Positions 3,147 through 14,434 of a stretch of DNA of 64,000 nucleotides are shown piece by piece. The position numbers and the translations under genes were made by a program. The notes beneath the pieces are model-generated. The model was not told the DNA's origin. It was given only the letters and a program-made list of their open reading frames with translations, and did no database searches. Position 1 is the first letter of the stretch, and each line of letters opens with the position of its first letter. The stretch is from Acidobacteriota bacterium (lineage in GTDB: Bacteria > Acidobacteriota > Terriglobia > Bryobacterales > Bryobacteraceae), in contig JAKOTR010000035.1 in NCBI GenBank assembly GCA_029776225.1, forward strand, positions 62,001-126,000. Direction: 5' to 3'.

Positions 3147-4913
3147 CTAATCGGCAATTCTCCAGTCGATGACGATCACGGCAACCGGCGCATTGTCCCC
3201 GCGTAGTGTCAGTTTCCGCCAGCCAGTCTGCGCGGATGGTGGTTCTGTCACCAGCACCCGCGCCGCGCGCTCAGGATCCAAAGCGTAGCGCGTAAGATTC
3301 CAGCCGTTCCGCGGGCCGGGCGGTTCCCTCTGCGCCGCCAGCGCCTTCGAAGTGTACACGACCAGCCCGTTGTCCGACAACTCAGCCGGATAGGCGCTGA
3401 CACGAACCGGCACGCCGGGCAATTCTCCCGTCACGTAGCCGGTTGAAGCGGTTCTTCCGTTGATCGAAAGGGCCTGGCCGCGCCGGAGCAACCCCGTCCA
3501 GATCAGCCGTCCGGAAACCGGTCCCCGGTAGGCTGGTCTTGACGGCGCGGGCCGCTGTGGCGCGGCGGCGGTGAGCGGCGCCGTTGGAAGCGGCGCGGGA
3601 GCCGCCGGCAATTGGGCGGAGGCGGAAGGAAGCGAAGGAGGCTCTCCGAGCGCCGGAGCCGCCGCCCTATGAGGCCGCAGGTTTGCCAACTCCAACACCT
3701 TGGTTTGCTCTGACCGTGGCGGCGATTCGAGCAGTTCCGACCGCTGCCGGCCTCTCCTGCCACGGCGCGGCGGCCGCGGAGCCGGTTTGGGCTTCTCGGC
3801 TGCCGGCTCTCTTACGGGCTTCCGGGGGCTCGCCTCCTGCTTCGGCTTCGCGGTGGGCATAGCGCCGACGAATCTCACCAACTCCTGCACCGGTTTTCCG
3901 TCCGGCGGATTCACAATCAGGCGCACTTCTACGAGCCCCGACTTCCGGGTATAAGTGACGCTTCCGCGCCTGAGCGCCGCCGCGTTAAACGGGAGGACGA
4001 CCCTCTTGCCGCCATCCACGATTTCCAGCGATCCGCCTGCGGCCTGAAGCACCGGGGCGGCCATGCGGTCCCAGGCGATCTGGAGCTGTCCGTTCACATC
4101 GAGCGCGCTCAGGGCCAGCGATTGCGAAGCCGGTTGTTTGCGCTCCCGCAACATCAGCGCTGAGGTCATCGCGATGACGGCGAGCACCGGGACTGCCACC
4201 GCTCCCCACAGCAAAAACCGCCGCCGGTTTACTCGCGCACGCGCAGGACGCGCGCGGTCGCGTTTCGAAATGGTTGTTTCCGCACGCGGAGCCGGAGCGT
4301 TTTCCGGCGTTATCACCTCTCGCGCCGCGCTCCGTTTTTTTGTTGCCCTCACCGGCAGGGCGAACTCGCCGTAGCTCGACTCGCAGCGGATCTTTCCGTT
4401 CGCTTCGCGGAAGAAAAACCCCGCCCGGGACGTCCCGAACGATTCCGGCCTTACAACCAGCGCCACCTGCCCGGCTTTGGGAAAGTGCCGGTTGTGAAGT
4501 TCCAGATCCTGCTCGGAGAGGCAGACCTCGCTTCGCGTGTGAGACACATACCAACCTACCGGCTCCAGTCCCGCCAGCAGCGGATCGGTCTCAAGCGCGC
4601 GAAGCGCATCCGCGAATGCCTGGCCGTCTCTTTCGGAAAGCCGGTACGAGGGCCCGAACTTGTACTCGCAGGGCACAGGCCGGAACGCCAAAATACGCGT
4701 GACGCCATCCTCAAGCCGCCCAAACAGGATGCCGCCCACTTCCACCCCACCGCGGGGAAATTTGCAGTAGCCGGCCACCGCCTCCGCACGGATCTCTTCG
4801 AGAACCGAGGCCCAATACACTACCCGGATGGCGTGTCCCTCGACACTCCACACACGGGTTTCGCTGTCATGCTGCGCTGGCGCCATGCCCCTGAAGAGTG
4901 CTTCTGGTTCCAC
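3147..4913 (-). CDS. JAMM/MPN-domain membrane protein with altered metal site
   Basis: The 588-residue protein has three parts. Residues ~28-185 are a JAB/MPN domain: the glutamate motif is at E58 (GGVEVGGILFG) and the distal motif is SH125-x7-S133-x2-D136. The first histidine of the usual HxH pair is Val123 (GWYVSH), coded by GTG, so the zinc site may be incomplete. Residues 233-254 form one membrane segment after a basic stretch, giving a cytosolic JAMM domain. A Pro/Ala-rich linker then leads to a C-terminal beta-rich extracytoplasmic domain. JAMM enzymes cleave isopeptide or peptide bonds or metabolise Cys-conjugates; here activity is uncertain. The start could also be Met10. Confidence 0.7.
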   Translation of the reverse strand: MEPEALFRGMAPAQHDSETRVWSVEGHAIRVVYWASVLEEIRAEAVAGYCKFPRGGVEVGGILFGRLEDGVTRILAFRPVPCEYKFGPSYRLSERDGQAFADALRALETDPLLAGLEPVGWYVSHTRSEVCLSEQDLELHNRHFPKAGQVALVVRPESFGTSRAGFFFREANGKIRCESSYGEFALPVRATKKRSAAREVITPENAPAPRAETTISKRDRARPARARVNRRRFLLWGAVAVPVLAVIAMTSALMLRERKQPASQSLALSALDVNGQLQIAWDRMAAPVLQAAGGSLEIVDGGKRVVLPFNAAALRRGSVTYTRKSGLVEVRLIVNPPDGKPVQELVRFVGAMPTAKPKQEASPRKPVREPAAEKPKPAPRPPRRGRRGRQRSELLESPPRSEQTKVLELANLRPHRAAAPALGEPPSLPSASAQLPAAPAPLPTAPLTAAAPQRPAPSRPAYRGPVSGRLIWTGLLRRGQALSINGRTASTGYVTGELPGVPVRVSAYPAELSDNGLVVYTSKALAAQREPPGPRNGWNLTRYALDPERAARVLVTEPPSAQTGWRKLTLRGDNAPVAVIVIDWRIAD

Positions 4914-5072
4914 TGTAGCGATGCCGCGGGCGGGGCGGCAACCCTGGCGGGCGTCGCTGCCGATCTACGATAACTTGAGCTTCTTCCCTTTTTCTCGTGC
5001 GCTCACTAAGTCTCGCTAAGTGATGCGATATGGCATTTTCGGAATGAACTCGTGAATTAACTGGTTTGCCGC

Positions 5073-5101
5073 TTGCCGGTGTCGAAAGTCACCGTTATAA
5101 T
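5073..5101 (+). promoter_or_regulatory. sigma70-type promoter of the CBM48/GMC/cupin/glgX operon
   Basis: TTGCCG at 5073-5078 and a perfect TATAAT at 5096-5101 are separated by 17 bp. Transcription would start near 5108, giving a leader of about 114 nt before the ATG at 5222. This is the best promoter match in the 308-bp gap between the divergent JAMM gene and the operon. Confidence 0.6.
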
Positions 5102-5107
5102 TCGTGA

Positions 5108-5221
5108 TTAGCATCTCAAGAGGGTAACTTAGGTTTTTGGACCGAGGCTGGCGCGCTGGAACGCGCGGCCGAAGCCTCCGCGCCGCCGGGGGGCCTCAAA
5201 AAAAGAACCGCAAGAGGGGCT
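5108..5221 (+). promoter_or_regulatory. Structured 5' leader of the operon
   Basis: The predicted leader contains a hairpin at 5144-5178: GAGGCT (5144-5149) pairs with AGCCTC (5173-5178), enclosing a second stem of CGCGC (5152-5156) with GCGCG (5163-5167). A G/C-rich stretch, seven A residues and a GAGGGG just before the start codon follow. No U-run follows the hairpin, so it is not a standard terminator. I recognise no known riboswitch. Confidence 0.35.
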
Positions 5222-6325
5222 ATGGGAACAGCATTGGCGCCCGCGGTGCGGCGCGCTTTTGAAAGCGGCACCGTTGTCCAAAAAGACGACACTTACGTCC
5301 TGAATCACACTACAAAATATCTGGCCCGCGCGAACGTTGATGAGCGGCATAACTACGGGCAGTTTCCTCAAGGCGACCCGCGCGCGCGCATCTGCGAATC
5401 CTGGCGTTTCCCCGTCATAGACGGCTATTACGATCCGGCGGATCCGGAGGAATCTTACCACTGGAACGAAGTTACGTTTGTATACCGCACATTTGACGGC
5501 ACGCAGCCGGGGAGCGTTTCCGTCGTGGGCACGTTCGCCCCGCTTTATCAAGAGATCCCTTTGCGCCGCATTGGCGGCACGCCTTATTTCGCCGTCACGG
5601 TGATGGTGCCCAAGGGCGAAGTCCATACGTATCGGTACGTTGTGGACGGGCGGCAGGAGCTCGACCCGATCAATCCGCAAACCGCGGTCGCCGACAACGG
5701 CAGGGTGTGGTCGCGCTTCTTCACACACGGCTGCACCCAGCGGCTCTCGTTCGAGCCCTGGGAAATGGACATACTAGAGCGGCTGACGGACCACATCCTC
5801 CCCTTCCGCACCGTCGAGGGGCAGCGTTTTCTCGATCGGTATTACCAGCAGCTGGACAGGGCGGCGAGGGAATCGCAGTATCCCATCGCCTACCGTTTCG
5901 ATGAAAGCGTGGGCATCGCCAATTTCATCGACAAGCTGGTTGCCCGCGAAGAGAACCATCGCCTGATCGACTACAAGATCTGCCTCGAAATCATCAACCG
6001 CCTGCTCCGCATGCGCAATCCGTTCGTGGAGCCGCGCCTGATGTCCAAGGAGATGTACATCGAGCTGTACAACCAGATGGCGTCGGGGAACGTGCCCGGA
6101 TGGGATTACGGAGCGTACCAGAATCCGCGGTTCTTTCTCCAGTTGTTGCGGCGGCACGCCATCACGGGCGCCTTCGCGCATCCCAAATACGGCGGCAACG
6201 CCGCAGCGAGCGGCTGGGTCTATCTGAGCGAACGCTACCGCGACCCGGAGACGGGCGCGACGCTATTTGACTGGAGGCGGGTGCAGGAACCGCCGCTGGG
6301 AACCGACCAGCAGTACCGCGGGTAG
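5222..6325 (+). CDS. CBM48-like domain fused to gluconate 2-dehydrogenase subunit 3-like domain
   Basis: The 367-residue protein appears to be a fusion. Residues ~80-170 look like an E-set glycogen-binding (CBM48/AMPK-beta) domain: VTFVYRTFDG, VSVVGTFAPLYQEIPLRR, TVMVPKGEVHTYRYVVDG and a DPINPQ segment. Residues ~180-345 resemble gluconate 2-dehydrogenase subunit 3: FIDKLVAREENHRL in the middle and HAITGAFAHPKYGGNAAASGW near the end. Known subunit-3 proteins are Tat-exported partners of a GMC flavoprotein; this one has no signal sequence. It is first in a five-gene operon and sits 9 nt before the GMC gene. I infer that it tethers the flavoenzyme to an alpha-glucan. Confidence 0.65.
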   Translation: MGTALAPAVRRAFESGTVVQKDDTYVLNHTTKYLARANVDERHNYGQFPQGDPRARICESWRFPVIDGYYDPADPEESYHWNEVTFVYRTFDGTQPGSVSVVGTFAPLYQEIPLRRIGGTPYFAVTVMVPKGEVHTYRYVVDGRQELDPINPQTAVADNGRVWSRFFTHGCTQRLSFEPWEMDILERLTDHILPFRTVEGQRFLDRYYQQLDRAARESQYPIAYRFDESVGIANFIDKLVAREENHRLIDYKICLEIINRLLRMRNPFVEPRLMSKEMYIELYNQMASGNVPGWDYGAYQNPRFFLQLLRRHAITGAFAHPKYGGNAAASGWVYLSERYRDPETGATLFDWRRVQEPPLGTDQQYRG

Positions 6326-6334
6326 GAGCGAACA

Positions 6335-8143
6335 ATGGCGAACGGATACGATGTCGTGGTGATTGGCAGCGGCGCCGGCGGCGCGCCGATTGCCAACATG
6401 CTGGTGAAGGCCGGCAAGAACGTGCTCATGCTCGAAAAGGGGCCGCTTTTCCGCACGCAGGATCAGACCAGCGGCCTGAGCGACTTCAAACGCGACGAGT
6501 TGTTCGCTACCGGCCCGGAAAAAATCATTCGCGTGGAGCGAGCGGCGAACTGGGGCGAATCGTATTACTCCAGCCACGTCGAGCCGGACCTGAATGACGA
6601 GCCGCATATCTACCGCGATGCCGACGGCCGTGACCGCGCCACGCTGGAGGGCTACACAGCGCAGTGTGTCGGCGGCGGGACCCAGCTTTACGGCGGAGTG
6701 TCGCTGCGCTTCTCCCCACTCGACTTCCGTCTGAAGTCGTTCAATGAAAACGGCGCCGCGCTGCGCAACGATCCCAACGGCGATGTGAAGCGCGAAGCGC
6801 GCGACTGGCCGATCACCTACGACGATCTGGAACCCTACTACACCCTGGCCGAGGAGCTCGTAGGCATCAGCGGGACCCGCCAGAACCAGCTCAAACCGGC
6901 CAGCCGCGAGGTCTACCAGAAGCCGCTGCCGCCCAATCCCATCAGCCGCTTCGTCGAAATCGGCATGGATGCGCTCGGCATGCCGCGCTACCGCACCCCG
7001 CTGGCCGTGATCACCGAGGACCACCCGCCGAGCGGGCGCACCTATCCAGGCGGCGAGGCCGCCAAAACGGGATACGTGAACCGCTACGGTTGTCCGCTAG
7101 GTTTGAAATCGAGCACCTGGGTTGCACTGCTGGCGCCTATCTACGGCCGGCCGAACTTCGAGTTGCGGCCCAACTGCACAGTCACCCACCTCGAATGCGA
7201 CAGCTCGGGAAACGTCACCAAGGTCGTCTATCTCGATGCCGGCGGCCAGCGCCGCGAAGTGTCGGGCAAGCTGATCGTCGTGGCGTGCTCGGCGATCGAA
7301 TCGGTGCGGCTGCTGAAGCTCTCGGCGCTTGAGAGCGCGGAGTTTGACCGCCGCATCAACCAGAACGATCTTCTCGGCAAATACTTCCTGACGCACTGCT
7401 TCGGCGGGGCTGAGGCGATCATGCCCGGGCGCTACGACAAATCGCTCTCCGTGGATAGCGATTGGGCCACCGATGCGTGCGCCACTCCGGATTTCATTCG
7501 CTCCAACGGCCTCTGGGCGGGCGGCGCCATCTACAACAACACGTCCGACCAGTGCCTGCCCATCTCCCTGGCGCGCACGCACGGCAGCCAGGACATCGAC
7601 ACCATCTGGAAGGCGTTCGTCGAGGATACATCGCTCACCGGCGAGCGCCTGGCTTCCTTCTTCGACGAGAACTTCGGCACGCGCCTCTCGGTCAGTTTCA
7701 TGGCGAACCAGGTGCCGCTGAAAACGAACCGCATCGAGCTGCATCCCACGGTGAAGGACAAGTGGGGGCGCAACGTGGCGTACATCATCAAGGAGTGGCA
7801 CCCCCACGACCAGTATCTGATGGACGTATTCGCCGAGCAGTGCGCGAGGGTGTTGCGCTTCGGCGGCGACGGCGGCAGGGGCAACTACCCCGTGTTCGAA
7901 AAGGGGGGCGTTTACCAGGCAGAGAACGGGCTGGCGCGCATCGCCAATCACATTCTGGGCGGCGCGCGCTTCGGCACGGACCGCAATGACTCGGTGCTCG
8001 ACCCCAATTGCCGCGCGTGGGAGTTCGACAACCTATACGTCACCGACGGCAGCTTCATGCCCACTTCCGGAGGAGCCAATCCCACATTGACCATACAGGC
8101 GAACTCGTTTCGAGTCGCCGACCACCTATTGTCACGGCTCTAG
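6335..8143 (+). CDS. GMC-family FAD oxidoreductase (gluconate/glucose dehydrogenase large-subunit type)
   Basis: The 602-residue protein opens with an ADP-binding FAD fold (YDVVVIGSGAGGAPIANML, then E of the LEKGP strand). It has a GMC-type QCVGGGTQLYGG segment. It ends with the catalytic-domain signature: NHILGGARFGTD supplies the active-site His, and LYVTDGSFMPT...NPTLTIQA the Asn. The layout matches the flavoprotein subunit of membrane-bound gluconate or 2-keto-gluconate dehydrogenases, which oxidise sugar alcohols. Unlike those it has no Tat signal and no cytochrome c gene is nearby, so it probably works in the cytosol. An AGGAGCG site precedes the ATG. Substrate is unknown; the operon suggests a glucan or maltodextrin-derived sugar. 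Confidence 0.82.
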   Translation: MANGYDVVVIGSGAGGAPIANMLVKAGKNVLMLEKGPLFRTQDQTSGLSDFKRDELFATGPEKIIRVERAANWGESYYSSHVEPDLNDEPHIYRDADGRDRATLEGYTAQCVGGGTQLYGGVSLRFSPLDFRLKSFNENGAALRNDPNGDVKREARDWPITYDDLEPYYTLAEELVGISGTRQNQLKPASREVYQKPLPPNPISRFVEIGMDALGMPRYRTPLAVITEDHPPSGRTYPGGEAAKTGYVNRYGCPLGLKSSTWVALLAPIYGRPNFELRPNCTVTHLECDSSGNVTKVVYLDAGGQRREVSGKLIVVACSAIESVRLLKLSALESAEFDRRINQNDLLGKYFLTHCFGGAEAIMPGRYDKSLSVDSDWATDACATPDFIRSNGLWAGGAIYNNTSDQCLPISLARTHGSQDIDTIWKAFVEDTSLTGERLASFFDENFGTRLSVSFMANQVPLKTNRIELHPTVKDKWGRNVAYIIKEWHPHDQYLMDVFAEQCARVLRFGGDGGRGNYPVFEKGGVYQAENGLARIANHILGGARFGTDRNDSVLDPNCRAWEFDNLYVTDGSFMPTSGGANPTLTIQANSFRVADHLLSRL

Positions 8144-8182
8144 CGCAGAAAACCGGCTCCGCCGGGTGAGGAGGATACAAAC

Positions 8183-9331
8183 GTGGATCCACGATTCGAC
8201 GAAGTCTTCAGCGACCGGTTTACCAACCCGGAGAACGAAACGTTCAAGGTGGTTTTCTATCCCGACCGCATTTATCATGCCCAGTACCTCAACGCCACGC
8301 GCAGCCCGCGCTACCGCTACAACGTGCACGAGGTCCGCAACCAGCTCGACATCGCGGTGCTCAAGGGCCAGGTGTACATGGATGGCGTTTACCTGTGCAA
8401 CTTTCTGCGCATCGAGTACCGCGCCAGCCGTCTGACGGAACTTGCGCGCGAGCGGAACCGCTTTCTTCGGGACCAGGTCCTCGCCTGGGTGCACCTGCTG
8501 CCCGAAGATCCTTCGCTCGAGGCGCAGGCGACGGTGAAACTGATCTACGACAAGTGGGTGGACGCCTACCAGGTGGAGATTTGGGAAACGCTGGAGCCGC
8601 CGCTGGGCAAGCACCACGATTACACGGTCCTGGACATGATGGGCCAGAACGGATCCATCATCAAGGTGAGCGAGTTCAGCCCCGCCCTGCGGGACGTGAA
8701 GGCCATCCGCCGCGTGGAACTCGCCTTCCGTGAGAACGACCGCGACCTGCCCTTCGGCTACGCCATCCAGAACCCTGAGTGGGACAACAACTTCCTCCGC
8801 ACGCACCAAGAGCCGCGAAGCGATATGCCCAGCTCTCCGGAGAACACGGTGGAGGACAGGTGTTATCTCATCGATTTCCAGCGAGGGTGGTACTTCCATG
8901 CGAAAGACGTGAAGCCGGTGCGCTATTTGAACGCTATGATGGAGCCCGGCAATCCCGATGCGAAGCCGGACAACGTGATCGAGATGCGCTGGCTGGTGCA
9001 GCGCGAGCTGGGCAGCTCGATGGTCTTCTTCCACGAGGTCACCATTCCTCCCGGCAAGGTGGAGGGGATCCACCGCCATATTGGAACCGAGGAACTTTAT
9101 TTCGTGACCCAGGGCAAGGGCACGGCGTACATGGCGGAGGGAGACGATCCCTCCACCGATTCCCTGCCGACCGTGGAGCGCGACGTCTACATGCAGGGCA
9201 AGCTGAAGTGCAAAGCCCTTCCAGTGGAGCCTGGCACGGTGATCTACACCAAGAGCGGAGGCGTGCACGGTATCCGCAATGACGGCAACGAGCCGCTGAA
9301 GTTCGCGGCCTTCCTGTATCACACAGTCTAG
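8183..9331 (+). CDS. Cupin-domain protein with uncharacterised N-terminal region
   Basis: The 382-residue protein uses a GTG start preceded by GAGGAGG. Residues ~1-230 are not recognised. The C-terminal ~120 residues form a cupin: motif 1 is PGKVEGIHRHIGTEELYF (His-x-His and Glu metal ligands), and motif 2 is KSGGVHGIRNDG with the fourth ligand His. Cupins include sugar isomerases, epimerases, dioxygenases and binding proteins. No signal peptide is present. It lies 39 nt after the GMC gene and 12 nt before a second cupin gene, so a shared pathway is likely, perhaps handling the oxidised sugar. That is inference only. Confidence 0.7.
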   Translation: MDPRFDEVFSDRFTNPENETFKVVFYPDRIYHAQYLNATRSPRYRYNVHEVRNQLDIAVLKGQVYMDGVYLCNFLRIEYRASRLTELARERNRFLRDQVLAWVHLLPEDPSLEAQATVKLIYDKWVDAYQVEIWETLEPPLGKHHDYTVLDMMGQNGSIIKVSEFSPALRDVKAIRRVELAFRENDRDLPFGYAIQNPEWDNNFLRTHQEPRSDMPSSPENTVEDRCYLIDFQRGWYFHAKDVKPVRYLNAMMEPGNPDAKPDNVIEMRWLVQRELGSSMVFFHEVTIPPGKVEGIHRHIGTEELYFVTQGKGTAYMAEGDDPSTDSLPTVERDVYMQGKLKCKALPVEPGTVIYTKSGGVHGIRNDGNEPLKFAAFLYHTV

Positions 9332-9343
9332 AGGAGACAGCCC

Positions 9344-10645
9344 ATGGCCACTACAAGCGTTCCTCCCTCGCCGCCGATGCAGGGAACTTCACCGCAGTTG
9401 ATGGCGCACGTCGATAGCGTCTTTCAGGTGGATCCCTCCACGACGCCAAACTACGACAGCGGCAACTCGCTCGTGAAGCTGCTAAGCATCATGGAGAAGA
9501 CAGGGCTTGCCGCGGAGCGGCAGAGTTACCTGGCCAATTCACTCCAGTACCTGTTTCCGATCAGGAGGCTCGAGCTGTACGGTCCGGCGGGCAGCGACTT
9601 CCAGATTCTGGACCCCACGCAGCAGGACAACAAGAACGATTTTCAGAAGCAGAACGTGCGCGATTTCGAGCTGACCGACACGCAACTGGTGCGCGGGTGG
9701 GCCGTCGCCGGCAATAACATCGTGCCTTTCCTGCGCGCCAGCTACCGCGGCGGGCCGGACTCGCTTCTTTCGGAGATGTCCGGCCATCGCCTCGGCCAGC
9801 GCATCAAGCTGTGGATCAGGGTCAACGGCGCGCAGGTTTCCTCGCCGCTGGTGGTGCCCTACAACCCCATCACGGACCGCTACGATATCGAGCTGTGGAA
9901 TTCGCCGGTCCCCGACCTGCGCCCGCTGCTGGATGACAAGGCGCGCGACGCGATGGACCGCGGCGAATTGCAGGTCCGCAACGATCTGGTGCAGGGAGCG
10001 CTGTCGGATTTCGACCGGGGCAAGCTGGAAGACCAGTACACGGTCTTTGTGGCGCCCAACAACACGATGCATCCCGTGCTGCCGCTCCGCATCGAGCTGG
10101 CCTGGGCCGACGAATCCGAGCGCTTCTGGGACTCGCAGAACGGCAACAACTACGTCTACGAGTTCAACATGATTCTGCGCGGCTGGGATGCGTTCCTGGG
10201 CGTGGGCACGAGCCCGAATCCGCACGGCGGCGTGGGATTCCTGGAGTACCGCAACCTGATGTCGAACTATGGCCGCTACGCCGGGCGCAATGAACTAGGC
10301 CGCACGCCCCAGTTCTGGAACTTTGACGCCTTTGGCCGCAAGGACCACAACGGGCGCCGCGAGAACTTCATGGCCGTCGATTACATGGACCTTCACATCC
10401 TCAAGGCCAACTGCGGAATCGGCCTGCACCGGCACCGCGACAATCAGGAGGTGTTCTTCATGATGGACGGGCAGGGTTACATGGTTGTGGGCGATTGGGT
10501 CAAGTTTCCTAACCGCGAGCGGTGCTTCGAAATCCGCACTCTGAGGGCCGGGCATTTCGCTATGCTGAAGGGCGGCAATCTGCACGGCCTGATGAATCCC
10601 AGCGACGAAAACATCTCGCTGTTCATGTTCGGCGGATATGACTAG
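9344..10645 (+). CDS. Second cupin-domain protein of the operon
   Basis: The 433-residue product has an unrecognised N-terminal two-thirds and a C-terminal cupin. Motif 1 reads CGIGLHRHRDNQEVFFMMDG, with His-x-His and Glu. Motif 2 is KGGNLHGLMNPSD, supplying the last His. A good AGGAGA lies before the ATG. The N-terminal part (for example LRASYRGGPDSLLSEMSGH) does not obviously match the preceding cupin protein, so the two are not simple tandem copies. The 3' end overlaps the glgX start by 8 nt, indicating translational coupling. Cytosolic; function unknown. Confidence 0.68.
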   Translation: MATTSVPPSPPMQGTSPQLMAHVDSVFQVDPSTTPNYDSGNSLVKLLSIMEKTGLAAERQSYLANSLQYLFPIRRLELYGPAGSDFQILDPTQQDNKNDFQKQNVRDFELTDTQLVRGWAVAGNNIVPFLRASYRGGPDSLLSEMSGHRLGQRIKLWIRVNGAQVSSPLVVPYNPITDRYDIELWNSPVPDLRPLLDDKARDAMDRGELQVRNDLVQGALSDFDRGKLEDQYTVFVAPNNTMHPVLPLRIELAWADESERFWDSQNGNNYVYEFNMILRGWDAFLGVGTSPNPHGGVGFLEYRNLMSNYGRYAGRNELGRTPQFWNFDAFGRKDHNGRRENFMAVDYMDLHILKANCGIGLHRHRDNQEVFFMMDGQGYMVVGDWVKFPNRERCFEIRTLRAGHFAMLKGGNLHGLMNPSDENISLFMFGGYD

Positions 10646-12701
10646 CGCGCAACCCGTAATTCAGCCGTTCTCGTGGGCGGCCATTGAAGGCTCGCCCTTG
10701 CCGCTGGGCGCTACCTATGTTCCCTCCGAACACGCTTACAATTTCGCGCTCTATGCAAAGGACGCCACCAGGGTTACGCTGCTGCTTTACTCCGAGTCGG
10801 ATCCGGTGACGCCGGTGGACACGTACGAGATGCGCTATCCGGGGAACAAGACCGGGCGCATCTGGCACTGCCGCCTGCCGGCCAGCAGGGTGGAAGCGGT
10901 TAAATACTACGCCTACCGCATCGAAGGCCCGGCAGACATTTCCCAGGGCCACCGGTTCGATCCGGAAAAAATCCTGCTCGACCCCTACGCGGACGCGGTC
11001 TACTTCCCACCCAATCACAGCCGCATGGCGGCGTCGCGGCCGGGACCCAACGACGGGCGGGCGCCGCTGGGAGTGATCGAGATTCAGGGACAACCCTTCG
11101 ACTGGGGAGACGACGTGCGGCCGCGCCACGGCCACGATACCGTCATCTACGAAATGCACGTGAAGGGGTTCACGGCGCGCGCCAACTCGGGCGTGACGCC
11201 GGAGAAGCGCGGTACCTATGCCGGTGTGATCGAGAAAATTCCCTACCTCAAGGAACTGGGGGTCACCGTTGTGGAGCTGCTGCCCGTGTTCCAGTACGAT
11301 CCGCAGGAGCGCAACTACTGGGGCTACATGCCCCTGAACTTTTTCTCGCCGCACCATGCCTATTCGTCGAACCGCACGCCCGGCGCGCAGCTCGATGAGT
11401 TCCGCGAGATGGTGAAAGCGCTGCATGCCGCCGGCATCGAGGTCGTGCTCGACGTGGTTTACAACCACACCACCGAGAGCGACGAAAACGGCCCCACGTA
11501 CAGCTTCCGCGGTATCGACAATTCCACTTACTACCTCCTGCACGAGGACCGCTCGCGATACCGCGACGACACGGGCACGGGAAACACGCTGCACTGCGCG
11601 AACCGCTACGTGCGAAAGATGATCGTGGACAGCATGCGCTTCTGGGCCGAGAAGATGCACGTGGACGGGTTCCGCTTCGATCTGGCGTCCATCTTCACGC
11701 GCAACAGCGACGGCTCCGTCAATTATGACGATCCGCCTGTTATTTCCCAGATTACGAGCGACCCCGCTTTCGAGGACCTGCGGCTCATCGCCGAAGCCTG
11801 GGATGTGAGCGAGTACCAGTTGGGAAAGAGCTTTCCGGGAATTACGTGGTTTCAGTGGAACGGCAAGTTTCGCGACGAGATCCGGCGATTTGTGAAGAGC
11901 GATCCCGGCATGATCGGCTCGCTGATGACGAGGCTTTATGGCAGCGACGACTTGTTTCCCGATGAGCGGGCGTTCGGCTACCGTCCCTTCCAGAGCGTGA
12001 ACTACGTCTGCTCGCACGACGGCTTCTGCCTCTACGACCTGGTCTCGTACAACTTCAAGCGCAACCTGGCGAACGGGCACAACAACACCGACGGCACCGA
12101 CGAGAACTACAGTTGGAACTGCGGCTGGGAAGGCGACGAAAACGTCCCTGCCGAGGTGTTAGCCCTGCGCAAGCGCCAGGTGAAGAACTTCTGCACCCTG
12201 CTGATGCTGGCCAACGGCACGCCTATGTTTGTGGCCGGCGATGAGTTTATGAACACGCAGGGCGGCAACAACAATCCCTACAACCAGGACAACGAGACCA
12301 CGTGGCTGAACTGGGACCTTCTCGAGCGCAACGCCGACATCTTCCGGTTCTTCAAAAAGATGATTGCGTTCCGGAAAGCGCACCCCTCGATCGGGCGCAG
12401 CACCTTCTGGCGCAGCGACATTGAATGGTATGGAACCTCCGGCCCTCCGGACTTGAGTTACAACTCGCATTCGCTGGCCTATCTGCTGCGGGGCGGCTCC
12501 GTGGGCGATCAGGATATCTACGTGATGATCAACGCATGGTGGGAGCCGCTGACGTTTGACTTTCAGGGCGGGAACCCCGGAGGATGGCAGCGCGTCGTGG
12601 ACACGAACCTTCCCAGCCCTGAGGACATCAACGATCCCGTGCCTGTGACCAACGCACGCTACACACTGGGTCCGCGTTCCGTCGCCGTCTTCGTGCGGTA
12701 A
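10638..12701 (+). CDS. glgX: GlgX-type glycogen debranching enzyme (GH13, isoamylase family)
   Basis: The 687-residue protein has an N-terminal E-set/CBM48 domain (LPLGATYVPSEHAYNFALYA) and a GH13 barrel with all four conserved regions: region I at D272 (DVVYNHT), region II DGFRFDLAS with the nucleophile D348, region III EAWD with the acid/base E386, and region IV SHDG with H460 and D461. RNYWGYMPLNFFSPHHAY is typical of GlgX/TreX/isoamylase enzymes, which cleave alpha-1,6 branch points in glycogen or limit dextrins. It closes the operon and is translated from an ATG inside the preceding cupin gene. No glycogen synthase or phosphorylase gene lies in the window. Confidence 0.85.
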   Translation: MTSAQPVIQPFSWAAIEGSPLPLGATYVPSEHAYNFALYAKDATRVTLLLYSESDPVTPVDTYEMRYPGNKTGRIWHCRLPASRVEAVKYYAYRIEGPADISQGHRFDPEKILLDPYADAVYFPPNHSRMAASRPGPNDGRAPLGVIEIQGQPFDWGDDVRPRHGHDTVIYEMHVKGFTARANSGVTPEKRGTYAGVIEKIPYLKELGVTVVELLPVFQYDPQERNYWGYMPLNFFSPHHAYSSNRTPGAQLDEFREMVKALHAAGIEVVLDVVYNHTTESDENGPTYSFRGIDNSTYYLLHEDRSRYRDDTGTGNTLHCANRYVRKMIVDSMRFWAEKMHVDGFRFDLASIFTRNSDGSVNYDDPPVISQITSDPAFEDLRLIAEAWDVSEYQLGKSFPGITWFQWNGKFRDEIRRFVKSDPGMIGSLMTRLYGSDDLFPDERAFGYRPFQSVNYVCSHDGFCLYDLVSYNFKRNLANGHNNTDGTDENYSWNCGWEGDENVPAEVLALRKRQVKNFCTLLMLANGTPMFVAGDEFMNTQGGNNNPYNQDNETTWLNWDLLERNADIFRFFKKMIAFRKAHPSIGRSTFWRSDIEWYGTSGPPDLSYNSHSLAYLLRGGSVGDQDIYVMINAWWEPLTFDFQGGNPGGWQRVVDTNLPSPEDINDPVPVTNARYTLGPRSVAVFVR

Positions 12702-12786
12702 GCTCGCGCCATTATCCTGCCCCTGGAGCGGCAACCCTGGAGAGCTCCGCCCGGATTACAATGTAGACAAGCAGTCCAACTCAATA

Positions 12787-12845
12787 CCGCCCGCGTAAAG
12801 GGTAGGGCGGAACATGCCGCCCAAAAGGGGATGGGTGGTACATCC
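12787..12845 (+). promoter_or_regulatory. Leader with mutually exclusive hairpins
   Basis: CCGCCC (12787-12792) can pair with GGGCGG (12805-12810), or that same GGGCGG can pair with CCGCCC (12817-12822). The two helices exclude each other. A further GGATG/CATCC hairpin follows (12829-12833 with 12841-12845). The segment lies upstream of the start at 12886, in a gap whose only promoter-like element is a weak TACAAT at 12757-12762. This resembles an attenuator or switch, but I recognise no ligand class. Confidence 0.35.
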
Positions 12846-12885
12846 ATGCATTCCGGTTCGCAGCCTTTTTTCTGGGGGAAATGGC

Positions 12886-13464
12886 ATGCTGCTGGGAAAC
12901 ATCCGAAGTGCCGCTCTGTGCACCGCCGCGCTTGTGCTTTGCTCCGCGCTCCTGGCGGCGGATGCCGAATTGAAAATCGTGGTGCTGGAAGGGCAAGGCG
13001 CCATCAACAATATACGCCAGTCAACGGCGAAGCCTCCCGCGGTTCGTGTGGAGGACAGGGCGGGCCGGCCAGTGCCGGGCGCCCGGGTCACCTTTGTGCT
13101 TCCCGATATAGGGGCGGGCGGCGTGTTCCCTAACGGACAGACTTCGCAAACCGTCGTGGCCGATGGGGAAGGCCGCGCGGCTGCCCACGGGCTTCGCCCG
13201 AACAACGTCGCCGGGCGCTTTCTGATCCGGATCGACGCGGTGCACGGCGACCGGAGGGGGCACGCCGTTCTGACTCAGACGAATGTGGCGCCACCGGCGG
13301 ATCGCCGCATTTCCAAGAGAACCCTGATTATCATCGGCGCGGCCGCGGGTGTGCTCACTGGGGTTCTGATCGCGACGCGCGGCGGGGGAAACAGCAGCGC
13401 GGCGGCGCCCGCGGGCGGCACCGTCATCACCCCCGGCAGTCCCGTTTTCGGACCGCCCCGTTGA
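12886..13464 (+). CDS. Exported Ig-like domain protein with C-terminal membrane segment
   Basis: The ATG at 12886 is chosen because GGGGGAAA precedes it and a clear signal peptide follows (NIRSAALCTAALVLCSALLA). The 192-residue protein has one bacterial Ig-like (Big_1-type) domain: AVRVEDRAGRPVPGARVTF, then TSQTVVADGEGRA. A hydrophobic segment (TLIIIGAAAGVLTGVLIA) follows, then a Gly/Ala/Pro tail. It is probably anchored to the membrane with the Ig domain outside the cytoplasm. It is the first of three closely spaced genes for exported proteins. Function unknown. Confidence 0.68.
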   Translation: MLLGNIRSAALCTAALVLCSALLAADAELKIVVLEGQGAINNIRQSTAKPPAVRVEDRAGRPVPGARVTFVLPDIGAGGVFPNGQTSQTVVADGEGRAAAHGLRPNNVAGRFLIRIDAVHGDRRGHAVLTQTNVAPPADRRISKRTLIIIGAAAGVLTGVLIATRGGGNSSAAAPAGGTVITPGSPVFGPPR

Positions 13465-13468
13465 CGCC

Positions 13469-14434
13469 ATGCGACCGCTTGCCGCTGCTCTGATTCTGCT
13501 GGCCTGGCAGGCCCCGGCCCACGGCCCTGCCATCCGGGGGCCCATGCTCGGATATGTGTTCGACCCGGGCGCCGCGGCCATACGGCCCATCCTGGGAATT
13601 CCGGGGGCGGCCACGCTCGGCGCTCCGCTGGATCTCGGCGAACCTATCGTCCGGGCGGTGATCTCGCCGCGGCAGGACTTCGCGCTCGCGGTTGCCGCCT
13701 CCGATTCCCGCGTGCTGGCAGTCAGCCTGCCATCCGGAACGGCCGAGGGCTGCGAGTGTGCGCCCGGCCCGGACCGCATTCTTTTCAGCCCGCGCGGGGA
13801 TGCCGCGGCGCTTTACTACTCAGCCGGTGCGAGGCTTCGCGTTCTCCCGCGCGCCGGGACGGCTCGGGGCGGAGAGTTCGACCTTTCGCTTTTTCCCGGT
13901 GAACTGACCGCGCTTGCGGTGAGCGACTCCGGCGCCGCGCTGGCCGCCTTTCTCAATGAATCGGCGGGGATCGTGTACTACCTGGAGTCCGGCCGGGAAC
14001 CGGGGCTCGCGCTTTCGCTGAGCCGGGCGTCCGCGCTGGCCTTTCTCCCGGCAAGCTCCGACGCGCTTGCAACCGACGATGTGGACGACCGCCTGTACCT
14101 CATTCGGGATCCGGGCGGCCGCGCGGAAGTCACCTTGACGGCGGCCGCCGGCGACGGCTTGGAAAAACCTGCCGCGGTCCTCGGCCTAGAAAAATCGCGG
14201 GCGTTAACCGCGGATGCTCGTGGCATCGTTATGACCGATCTCACCGCGGGCTTCTCCTCGGTGATCGAGTGCGGGTTCGCTCCAGGCGATCTTCAGCCTT
14301 TGGGCGGTTCCGTTTACCGGCTGGCGGCGCCGTCTCCGGGTCCGCTGTGGTTTCTCGACGGCGGCGCGCCCGGCGCACGGGTGTTTTTCGTTCCGCCAGA
14401 TAACTTTGCTCCGCCGCAGGAGGAACAGCCATGA
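13469..14434 (+). CDS. Exported protein, possible beta-propeller
   Basis: The 321-residue product starts 4 nt after the preceding stop and has a short signal peptide (RPLAAALILLAWQAPAHG). The rest is made of short beta-rich units with recurring patterns such as VRAVISPRQDFALAVAASD, DRILFSPRGDAAALYY and LTALAVSDSGAALAAF. This suggests WD40-like or YVTN-like propeller blades, though no single family is certain. Its stop overlaps the next start as ATGA, implying translational coupling with the Ig-repeat protein. Role unknown, probably at the cell surface or in the periplasm. Confidence 0.6.
   Translation: MRPLAAALILLAWQAPAHGPAIRGPMLGYVFDPGAAAIRPILGIPGAATLGAPLDLGEPIVRAVISPRQDFALAVAASDSRVLAVSLPSGTAEGCECAPGPDRILFSPRGDAAALYYSAGARLRVLPRAGTARGGEFDLSLFPGELTALAVSDSGAALAAFLNESAGIVYYLESGREPGLALSLSRASALAFLPASSDALATDDVDDRLYLIRDPGGRAEVTLTAAAGDGLEKPAAVLGLEKSRALTADARGIVMTDLTAGFSSVIECGFAPGDLQPLGGSVYRLAAPSPGPLWFLDGGAPGARVFFVPPDNFAPPQEEQP

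Follow-up and report, generated by a model that had tools for sequence, protein, structure and literature searches.

We describe a gene cluster at positions 5222-12701 of a 64,000-nucleotide stretch of DNA (hereafter the window) from a genome of the Bryobacteraceae, phylum Acidobacteriota (contig JAKOTR010000035.1, positions 62,001 to 126,000), and conclude that the first four of its five genes form a conserved unit. These four genes encode a fusion protein with a small-subunit domain (P1), a GMC flavoprotein (P2) and a pair of cupins with predicted metal sites (P3 and P4). The fifth gene encodes a glycoside hydrolase of family GH13 (P5), which lies outside the conserved core and is an accessory gene. 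We propose that the core moves horizontally as a cassette and serves to oxidize sugars supplied by alpha-glucans in the cytosol, a reading to which we give an even chance of being correct. The genetics of the cassette are well supported; the chemistry we infer.

A conserved four-gene core

All five open reading frames (ORFs) of the cluster are on the + strand, with spacings of 9, 39, 12 and -8 nucleotides (nt), and the ORF check reproduced exactly what an earlier note on this DNA had given (Table 1). The same note had run the five genes from one promoter. A promoter-like site does lie upstream of P1, and its position makes a single promoter for the whole cluster plausible, but the scan that found this one site would be expected to find 2.0 in shuffled sequence. 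The cluster and the window are alike in G+C content (0.615 and 0.625). The genome (5.18 Mb, 97.7% complete, 115 contigs) has a single copy of P2, and its second GMC match is only 35% identical.

A scan for P2, with one genome per species, kept the best 80 of 374 relatives. Among these, 23 loci (L018-L040) are 55-89% identical to P2 and the other 57 are at most 34% identical. The nearest relative of the window is L018, from a Bryobacterales metagenome-assembled genome, in which P2 is 89% identical. We compared 33 loci: the window, L018-L040, a copy on a Microvirga plasmid (L017), and the genome-search loci L098, L120-L122 and L139-L142. L001, L003, L004 and others that repeat a counted locus were left out of the 33.

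The 33 loci come from seven phyla or proteobacterial classes, and P1-P4 are in the same order and on the same strand at 31 of them; P1 is present, whole or cut, at 31 of the 33 as well. The Microvirga plasmid carries the complete set. Members are found in Brevibacillus dissolubilis CHY01, Methylomonas lenta R-45370, Sphaerospermopsis aphanizomenoides BCCUSP55 and Microvirga sp. VF16. One exception, L037, starts within P2 at a contig end, and in the other, L039, the contig ends inside P2, of which roughly the first four-fifths is present. Not all of the 31 are intact: contig ends truncate L018, L019 and L030, L122 is a decayed copy, and a stop codon breaks up P3 of L036. At nine loci, with start codons that we chose, the intergenic gaps within P1-P4 range from -2 to 225 nt. 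The earlier note had proposed to look for conservation of the five-gene order and would have been contradicted by homologous clusters with routinely separated genes. Routine separation was not seen for P1-P4, but the conserved unit has four genes and not five: a GlgX-type gene stands with the core at only 3 of the 33 loci.

The alignments used below have 23 rows for P1 (leaving out L018, which is cut, L037 and L039), 25 for P2 (leaving out L039), 24 for P3 (leaving out the stop-interrupted L036 and L039) and 24 for P4 (leaving out L030, which is cut, and L039). Neither these alignments nor the P2 tree include L120-L122 or L139-L142.

Recurrent GH13 genes beside the core

A GH13 gene or remnant lies beside the core at 22 of the 33 loci. 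The same search around other GMC relatives, which served as controls, found none at 57 loci; these span 970,507 bases, and 39 of them exceed 15 kb. The Fisher p value for this difference, 4e-13, overstates the case because the loci are related: L139, L141 and L142 are about 91-93% identical where aligned, and several Nostoc/Anabaena loci are close kin. The GH13 gene directly follows P4 in 16 of the 22 and is upstream of P1 in 6 (Nostoc/Anabaena and kin). It is often within tens of nt of P4, and at L140:10535-12544, from the order of Methylomonas, an open frame for an alpha-amylase-type GH13 begins right after the P4 stop codon. The GH13 genes are of four kinds that are mutually non-orthologous (Table 1). 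Recruitment of four unrelated kinds beside one core points to an alpha-glucan substrate and is, in our view, the strongest evidence for it.

P5 contains CBM_48 and Alpha-amylase domains (Pfam) and the Asp/Glu/Asp catalytic motifs of GH13. Its best NCBIfam match is GlgX (TIGR02100), which it covers from position 2 to 687 of 688. P5, which the earlier note had identified as a GlgX debranching enzyme, is of the GlgX/isoamylase type, but its score of about 623 bits is just under the cut-off of 640.9.

The GH13 genes could also be chance neighbors, that is, housekeeping glycogen genes next to a core that oxidizes a small molecule unrelated to glycogen. P5 is the sole GlgX-type match over most of the model in the window genome and may merely be the housekeeping GlgX of that genome. 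Furthermore, no GH13 was found in the stretch examined at 11 of the 33 loci; of these, L019, L030, L037 and L039 run into a contig end on one side or both, but L024, L027, L028, L034, L038, L098 and L122 have more sequence room. We consider this explanation unlikely: GH13 genes of four unrelated kinds adjoin the core in different phyla, often at such short distances from P4, and the control loci have none. The 11 loci without GH13, together with the fact that GlgX is one kind among four, do indicate that debranching is not a conserved step. Of the pathway previously suggested, in which glycogen or a maltodextrin is debranched and a sugar oxidized, the alpha-glucan-linked cytosolic oxidoreductase is supported and the conserved debranching step is not.

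Table 1. Positions and kinds of features in the window and at related loci. Positions without a locus name are those of the window.
Feature	Position or locus	Strand	Description
P1	5222-6325	+	367 amino acids
P2	6335-8143	+	602 amino acids
P3	8183-9331	+	382 amino acids, start codon GTG
P4	9344-10645	+	433 amino acids
P5	10638-12701	+	687 amino acids, 8-nt overlap with P4
Promoter-like site TTGCCG-17-TATAAT	5073-5101	+	about 120 nt upstream of P1
GH13, GlgX/isoamylase type	window, L018, L032		3 loci
GH13, GlgB/TreZ-like b			9 loci, 2 of them remnants
GH13, GlgB/TreZ-like c			8 loci, 2 of them incomplete; about 30% identical to b
GH13, alpha-amylase type	L140, L026 (incomplete)		2 loci
Decayed copy, order of a Nostoc	L122:4436-8060		loss across P1/P2, internal loss in P4
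Decayed copy, order of a Nostoc	L123:5635-5928		lone P4 cupin end
Distant P4-type cupin locus	L109:1594-4793		GMC gene with Cys-rich stretch
Distant P4-type cupin locus	L111:2479-5664		GMC gene with Cys-rich stretch

The core proteins

P1 and P2 share features with sugar dehydrogenase complexes. The small subunit with a Gluconate_2-dh3 domain that occurs in GMC sugar dehydrogenase complexes is present here inside the P1 fusion (residues 225-333; 30.7 bits, Pfam cut-off 23.4). P1 also matches AMPK1_CBM at about residues 98-155, marginally below the cut-off (26.2 of 26.8 bits). The earlier note had recognized the subunit-3 fusion, but its CBM48-like domain is, judging from the Pfam match, better named AMPK glycogen-binding-like. 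We propose that P1 is the partner of P2.

P2 contains GMC_oxred_N and GMC_oxred_C (Pfam), as expected of the GMC dehydrogenase that had been noted. His539 and Asn582, which we take to be the catalytic pair of GMC enzymes, are invariant in all 25 aligned sequences; pyranose oxidases too have a C-terminal His...Asn pair. With the family profile, the best-scoring solved relatives are the glucose dehydrogenase that depends on flavin adenine dinucleotide (FAD; E 1e-44) and fructose dehydrogenase (E 4e-34). Pyranose oxidase and cellobiose dehydrogenase come next, and the scores of choline and cholesterol oxidases are far below these. The best NCBIfam match is a weak one to pyranose oxidase (TIGR02462, 59.7 bits, cut-off 544.9). 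We rejected P2 as a choline dehydrogenase, a cholesterol oxidase or MftG, each being far below its NCBIfam cut-off.

The electrons from P2 probably do not leave by the Fe-S and cytochrome c route. In the stretch of P2 aligned to the cysteines that presumably ligate the 3Fe-4S cluster of glucose and fructose dehydrogenases, there is at most one Cys in 25 of 25 sequences. A Pfam scan of 8 genes (window 3147-14431) found no multiheme cytochrome c gene, and the annotation has no cytochrome c gene beside the Microvirga copy, these being the two loci examined. In addition, a crude hydropathy scan, made without a dedicated predictor, found no evident signal peptide on P1-P5, in line with the earlier note. 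The highest mean hydropathy over 15 residues within the first 50 was 0.57, 1.30, -0.16, 0.35 and 0.87 for P1 to P5, and at most 1.13 for 23 P1 N-termini, compared with 1.74 for a small subunit with a twin-arginine (Tat) signal from the same genome. The second GMC gene of the genome adjoins a Gluconate_2-dh3 gene with a twin-arginine start, in contrast to P1. Without an evident signal and with no cytochrome gene found at the window, another exit for the electrons is the probable one.

P3 and P4 each have an N-terminal beta domain followed by a C-terminal metal cupin with the pattern His-x-His-x(3,4)-Glu and a later His. Cupin_2 is above the Pfam cut-off in P3 and below it in P4 (22.1 of 27.2). 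The predicted ligands (His297, His299, Glu303/Glu304 and His362 in P3; His362, His364, Glu369 and His414 in P4) are invariant in 24 of 24 sequences of each, the window row of P4 included, in line with the earlier description of two metal-binding cupins. The two proteins are paralogues (hhalign probability 97.3, E 2.1e-11, 281 columns), and this result rules out that they are unrelated. Neither has an NCBIfam match. Homology between the N-terminal domains of P4 and P1 was also considered, and was rejected on a profile comparison (E 0.054, probability 1).

The structure model of P3 (mean pLDDT 82) places its cupin closest to TM1287 (Z 18.1, 113 residues, 1.6 A) and also near KdgF (Z 15.2) and an archaeal phosphomannose isomerase (Z 14.3); the cellulose-oxidizing cupin 9bwi is among the matches at Z 13.3, with many cupins equal or higher. 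The model of P4 is poor in its cupin part (pLDDT <50 at 280-335), from which we make no structural claim, and Foldseek alone found no match for P4 at E 0.001. The modeled N-terminal domain of P4 resembles the isoamylase N-domain (Z 7.9, 98 residues, 3.1 A), with CBM56, AMPK beta and CBM21 as other weak best matches, a likeness that may be at the level of a common beta-sandwich.

Some of these features could fit an oxidative attack on the polymer itself. Cellobiose dehydrogenase is a partner of polysaccharide monooxygenases, and on this model P2 would be an oxidase producing H2O2, with which the cupins, through glucan-binding N-terminal domains, would cut an alpha-glucan. The near absence of aligned Fe-S cysteines in P2, the lack of a cytochrome gene among the window genes scanned, the carbohydrate-related matches of the P4 N-terminal domain and the presence of 9bwi among the P3 matches could all be read in this way. 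Even so, we think peroxide-fed cleavage very unlikely. Many cupins score as high as 9bwi or higher, and the P4 domain matches are at common beta-sandwich level. The His-His-Glu-His ligand set is one that isomerases, decarboxylases and dioxygenases typically have. Moreover, peroxide in the cytosol would be costly.

In the family of the window, at L111, a distant P4 relative lies head to head with Gluconate_2-dh3 and GMC genes, both confirmed by Pfam. L109 has the same layout, with the GMC gene confirmed and the Gluconate_2-dh3-like frame recognized by eye only. The pairing of a P4-type cupin with such oxidoreductases therefore seems to predate the cassette. The cupin N-termini of both loci look signal-like by eye; hydropathy agrees for L111 (2.02) but disagrees for L109, whose 1.22 is lower than the value for P4 of the Microvirga copy. 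This arrangement is possibly an exported counterpart of the cassette.

Distribution and transfer

The cassette is rare and patchy. A P4 profile matched 7 of 150 genomes in the family of the window (2 close and full-length, 5 distant or partial). In the order of a Nostoc, 7 genomes out of 291 matched, four by a full-length copy and three by a partial one. The profile matched 2 of 201, 1 of 39 and 4 of 82 genomes in the orders of Methylomonas, Brevibacillus and Azospirillum, respectively; each count includes the genome that prompted the choice of group. When P1 was searched for in the window's phylum (297 genomes), 14 matches reached E<=0.001, and only two of these, in the window genome and genome G231, extend over most of the protein. 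The ten host genomes that were checked have one P4 each.

The P2 tree (25 rows, midpoint root) departs from the phyla, its key groupings being at starred support. An Azospirillum groups with a Verrucomicrobium, and the copy on the Microvirga plasmid is paired with that of a genome from the window's phylum. Two Gammaproteobacteria and one unplaced bacterium lie inside a group otherwise made up of ten cyanobacterial rows. Since the tree crosses phyla, the cassette moves horizontally. There are also broken copies (Table 1) and GH13 remnants (L020 and L036). Taken together, the patchiness, the tree and the broken copies show gain by transfer and also loss. At L110:7422-9665, a C-terminal piece of P4 with a broken frame lies directly upstream of a type c GH13 gene, and this looks like a cassette remnant whose GH13 gene survives. 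No relative turned up when viral contigs were scanned once with the P4 profile.

Several other genes lie near individual cores. A UxuA-like gene (mannonate dehydratase family) is at 780-1865 of the window and another directly follows GlgX at L018:7345-8763. We rejected this gene as a member of the set, since its positions differ in these two loci and it is in none of the other 24 loci clustered. The window also has a divergent 588-amino-acid protein at 3147-4913 on the - strand, with a weak JAB/MPN-like N-terminal domain under the Pfam cut-off. At L024:12273-13796 (Anabaena sp. UHCC 0187), a Dyp-type peroxidase gene is about 4 kb downstream of the core, and at L039:1-6366 a primase gene of an AEP-TOTE conflict system lies near the incomplete P2. 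ORFs of ABC-transporter type are near three cores (L023:12151-12924, L030:3-860 and L040:1116-5041; one ORF cluster, with Pfam for L030 only). In L040, HlyD and OEP export genes lie beside them, possibly by coincidence.

The main chemical rival to our proposal is the precedent of pyranose oxidase and aldos-2-ulose dehydratase, the fungal form of the latter being a cupin enzyme that acts on a 2-keto-sugar. P2 would then be pyranose-2-oxidase-like, and the cupins would dehydrate or isomerize the 2-keto-sugar (glucosone) to an antimicrobial of the cortalcerone or microthecin type. A patchy presence with broken copies would suit a secondary metabolite, transporter-type genes lie near three cores (with export genes at one), and pyranose oxidase is both the weak best NCBIfam match of P2 and among its PDB matches. 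According to the title of a reference in PMC11650716, the fungal enzyme pair yields cortalcerone. We nevertheless find this route quite improbable. The match of P2 to pyranose oxidases is much weaker than that to glucose and fructose dehydrogenases. In the PDB sequence search, neither P3 (matches with E up to 0.01) nor P4 (E up to 1) hit aldos-2-ulose dehydratase, and the enzyme is also absent from the structural matches listed for them, although absence from such lists is no proof. In addition, the ABC-type genes differ in position, and such ATPases are common.

Proposed function

We postulate that the cassette works on glucosyl units in the cytosol. The adjoining GH13 enzyme, of GlgX/isoamylase type in the window, would trim or free a malto-oligosaccharide or a chain end. 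P1, through its fused subunit-3 domain, would hold and mature P2, and P2 would oxidize a hydroxyl of a glucosyl unit of glycogen or maltodextrin to give a keto-sugar or lactone. P3 and P4 could then convert the product by isomerization, elimination, dehydration or hydration. The electrons from P2 might pass to oxygen or to a soluble or quinone acceptor, bypassing the Fe-S/cytochrome c route of the periplasmic relatives.

Besides the loci without GH13 and the possibly generic fold of the P4 N-terminal domain, several observations weigh against this proposal. AMPK beta binds glycogen by means of two Trp that stack on the glucan. In the P1 domain, one of these positions is Leu in all 23 sequences and the other is Trp in just 2 of the 23, which weakens the argument from a glycogen module to the substrate, and the domain may be a scaffold instead of a glycogen binder. 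Of the glycogen-directed modules that the earlier note saw at both ends of the cluster, the P5 enzyme is outside the core and the P1 domain lacks these Trp. The P2 start of L039 is 55% identical, and the 4.7 kb before it contain no P1. One of the 24 P4 N-termini, that of the Microvirga copy, has a hydropathy of 1.68 in the crude scan, near the Tat control. Finally, ORF clustering over 26 loci, with Pfam on some neighbors only, found no recurrent reductase or kinase with which a catabolic pathway would be complete.

Known families are apparently brought together here in an undescribed, conserved and mobile combination. The statement that no pathway with this gene set had been described stood up among the open-licence papers searched, in which we found no description of the set; it could be described elsewhere. 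Bacterial use of glycogen and maltodextrin is taught as hydrolysis and phosphorolysis. If our proposal is correct, an oxidative branch would be added to bacterial alpha-glucan use. It might also yield keto-sugar products that are new, as well as new carbohydrate oxidases of use in biosensors and synthesis.

Comparison with known systems

The general metal-ligand pattern of P3 and P4 is similar to that of TM1287, KdgF and the archaeal phosphoglucose/phosphomannose isomerases. These single-domain cupins share the fold of the P3 C-terminal domain, to which P3 and P4 add a long conserved N-terminal domain. P5 is like GlgX/isoamylase (TIGR02100; PDB 2vnc) in aligning over nearly the whole model and in its CBM48 and GH13 motifs. 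It differs in falling just below the cut-off, and its type accompanies few of the cores.

The FAD glucose and fructose dehydrogenase complexes (6a2u, 8hdd, 7w2j) likewise combine a GMC catalytic subunit with a small subunit, the counterpart of which is the Gluconate_2-dh3 domain of P1. In contrast to these complexes, P1 has no evident Tat or Sec signal, P2 has at most one of the aligned Fe-S cysteines, and no cytochrome c gene was found at the two loci examined. The small subunit is also fused to a CBM-like domain, and two cupins are added. Pyranose oxidases, including the cyanobacterial OPOx as presented in the main text of PMC11650716, share the GMC fold and the C-terminal His...Asn pair with P2, but P2 matches them far more weakly than it matches glucose dehydrogenase. 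The word operon is absent from that main text.

A chemical parallel is the GlycDH-OGE operon of Agrobacterium, together with the gut strain PUE. As described in the main text of PMC10628242, glycosides are opened there by oxidation, elimination (Mn-dependent in GlycDH-OGE), hydration and reduction. By analogy, the cassette would resemble these systems in having one oxidoreductase with two paired metal enzymes. However, the metal enzymes of those systems are TIM barrels that carry the annotation sugar phosphate isomerase/epimerase, and their route ends with a reductase; the cassette has cupins, and no reductase was seen. Cupins go unmentioned in the main text of that paper. We speculate that the cassette could provide a non-hydrolytic, non-phosphorolytic intracellular route for alpha-glucans, a possibility that we regard as fairly unlikely. 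P2 would oxidize C3 of a glucosyl residue in a maltodextrin, one cupin would split the 3-keto-glucoside by metal-dependent beta-elimination and its paralogue would hydrate the product, the mobile cassette taking any GH13 at hand. Read in this way, the paired cupins would be the counterpart of the TIM-barrel eliminase/hydratase pairs.

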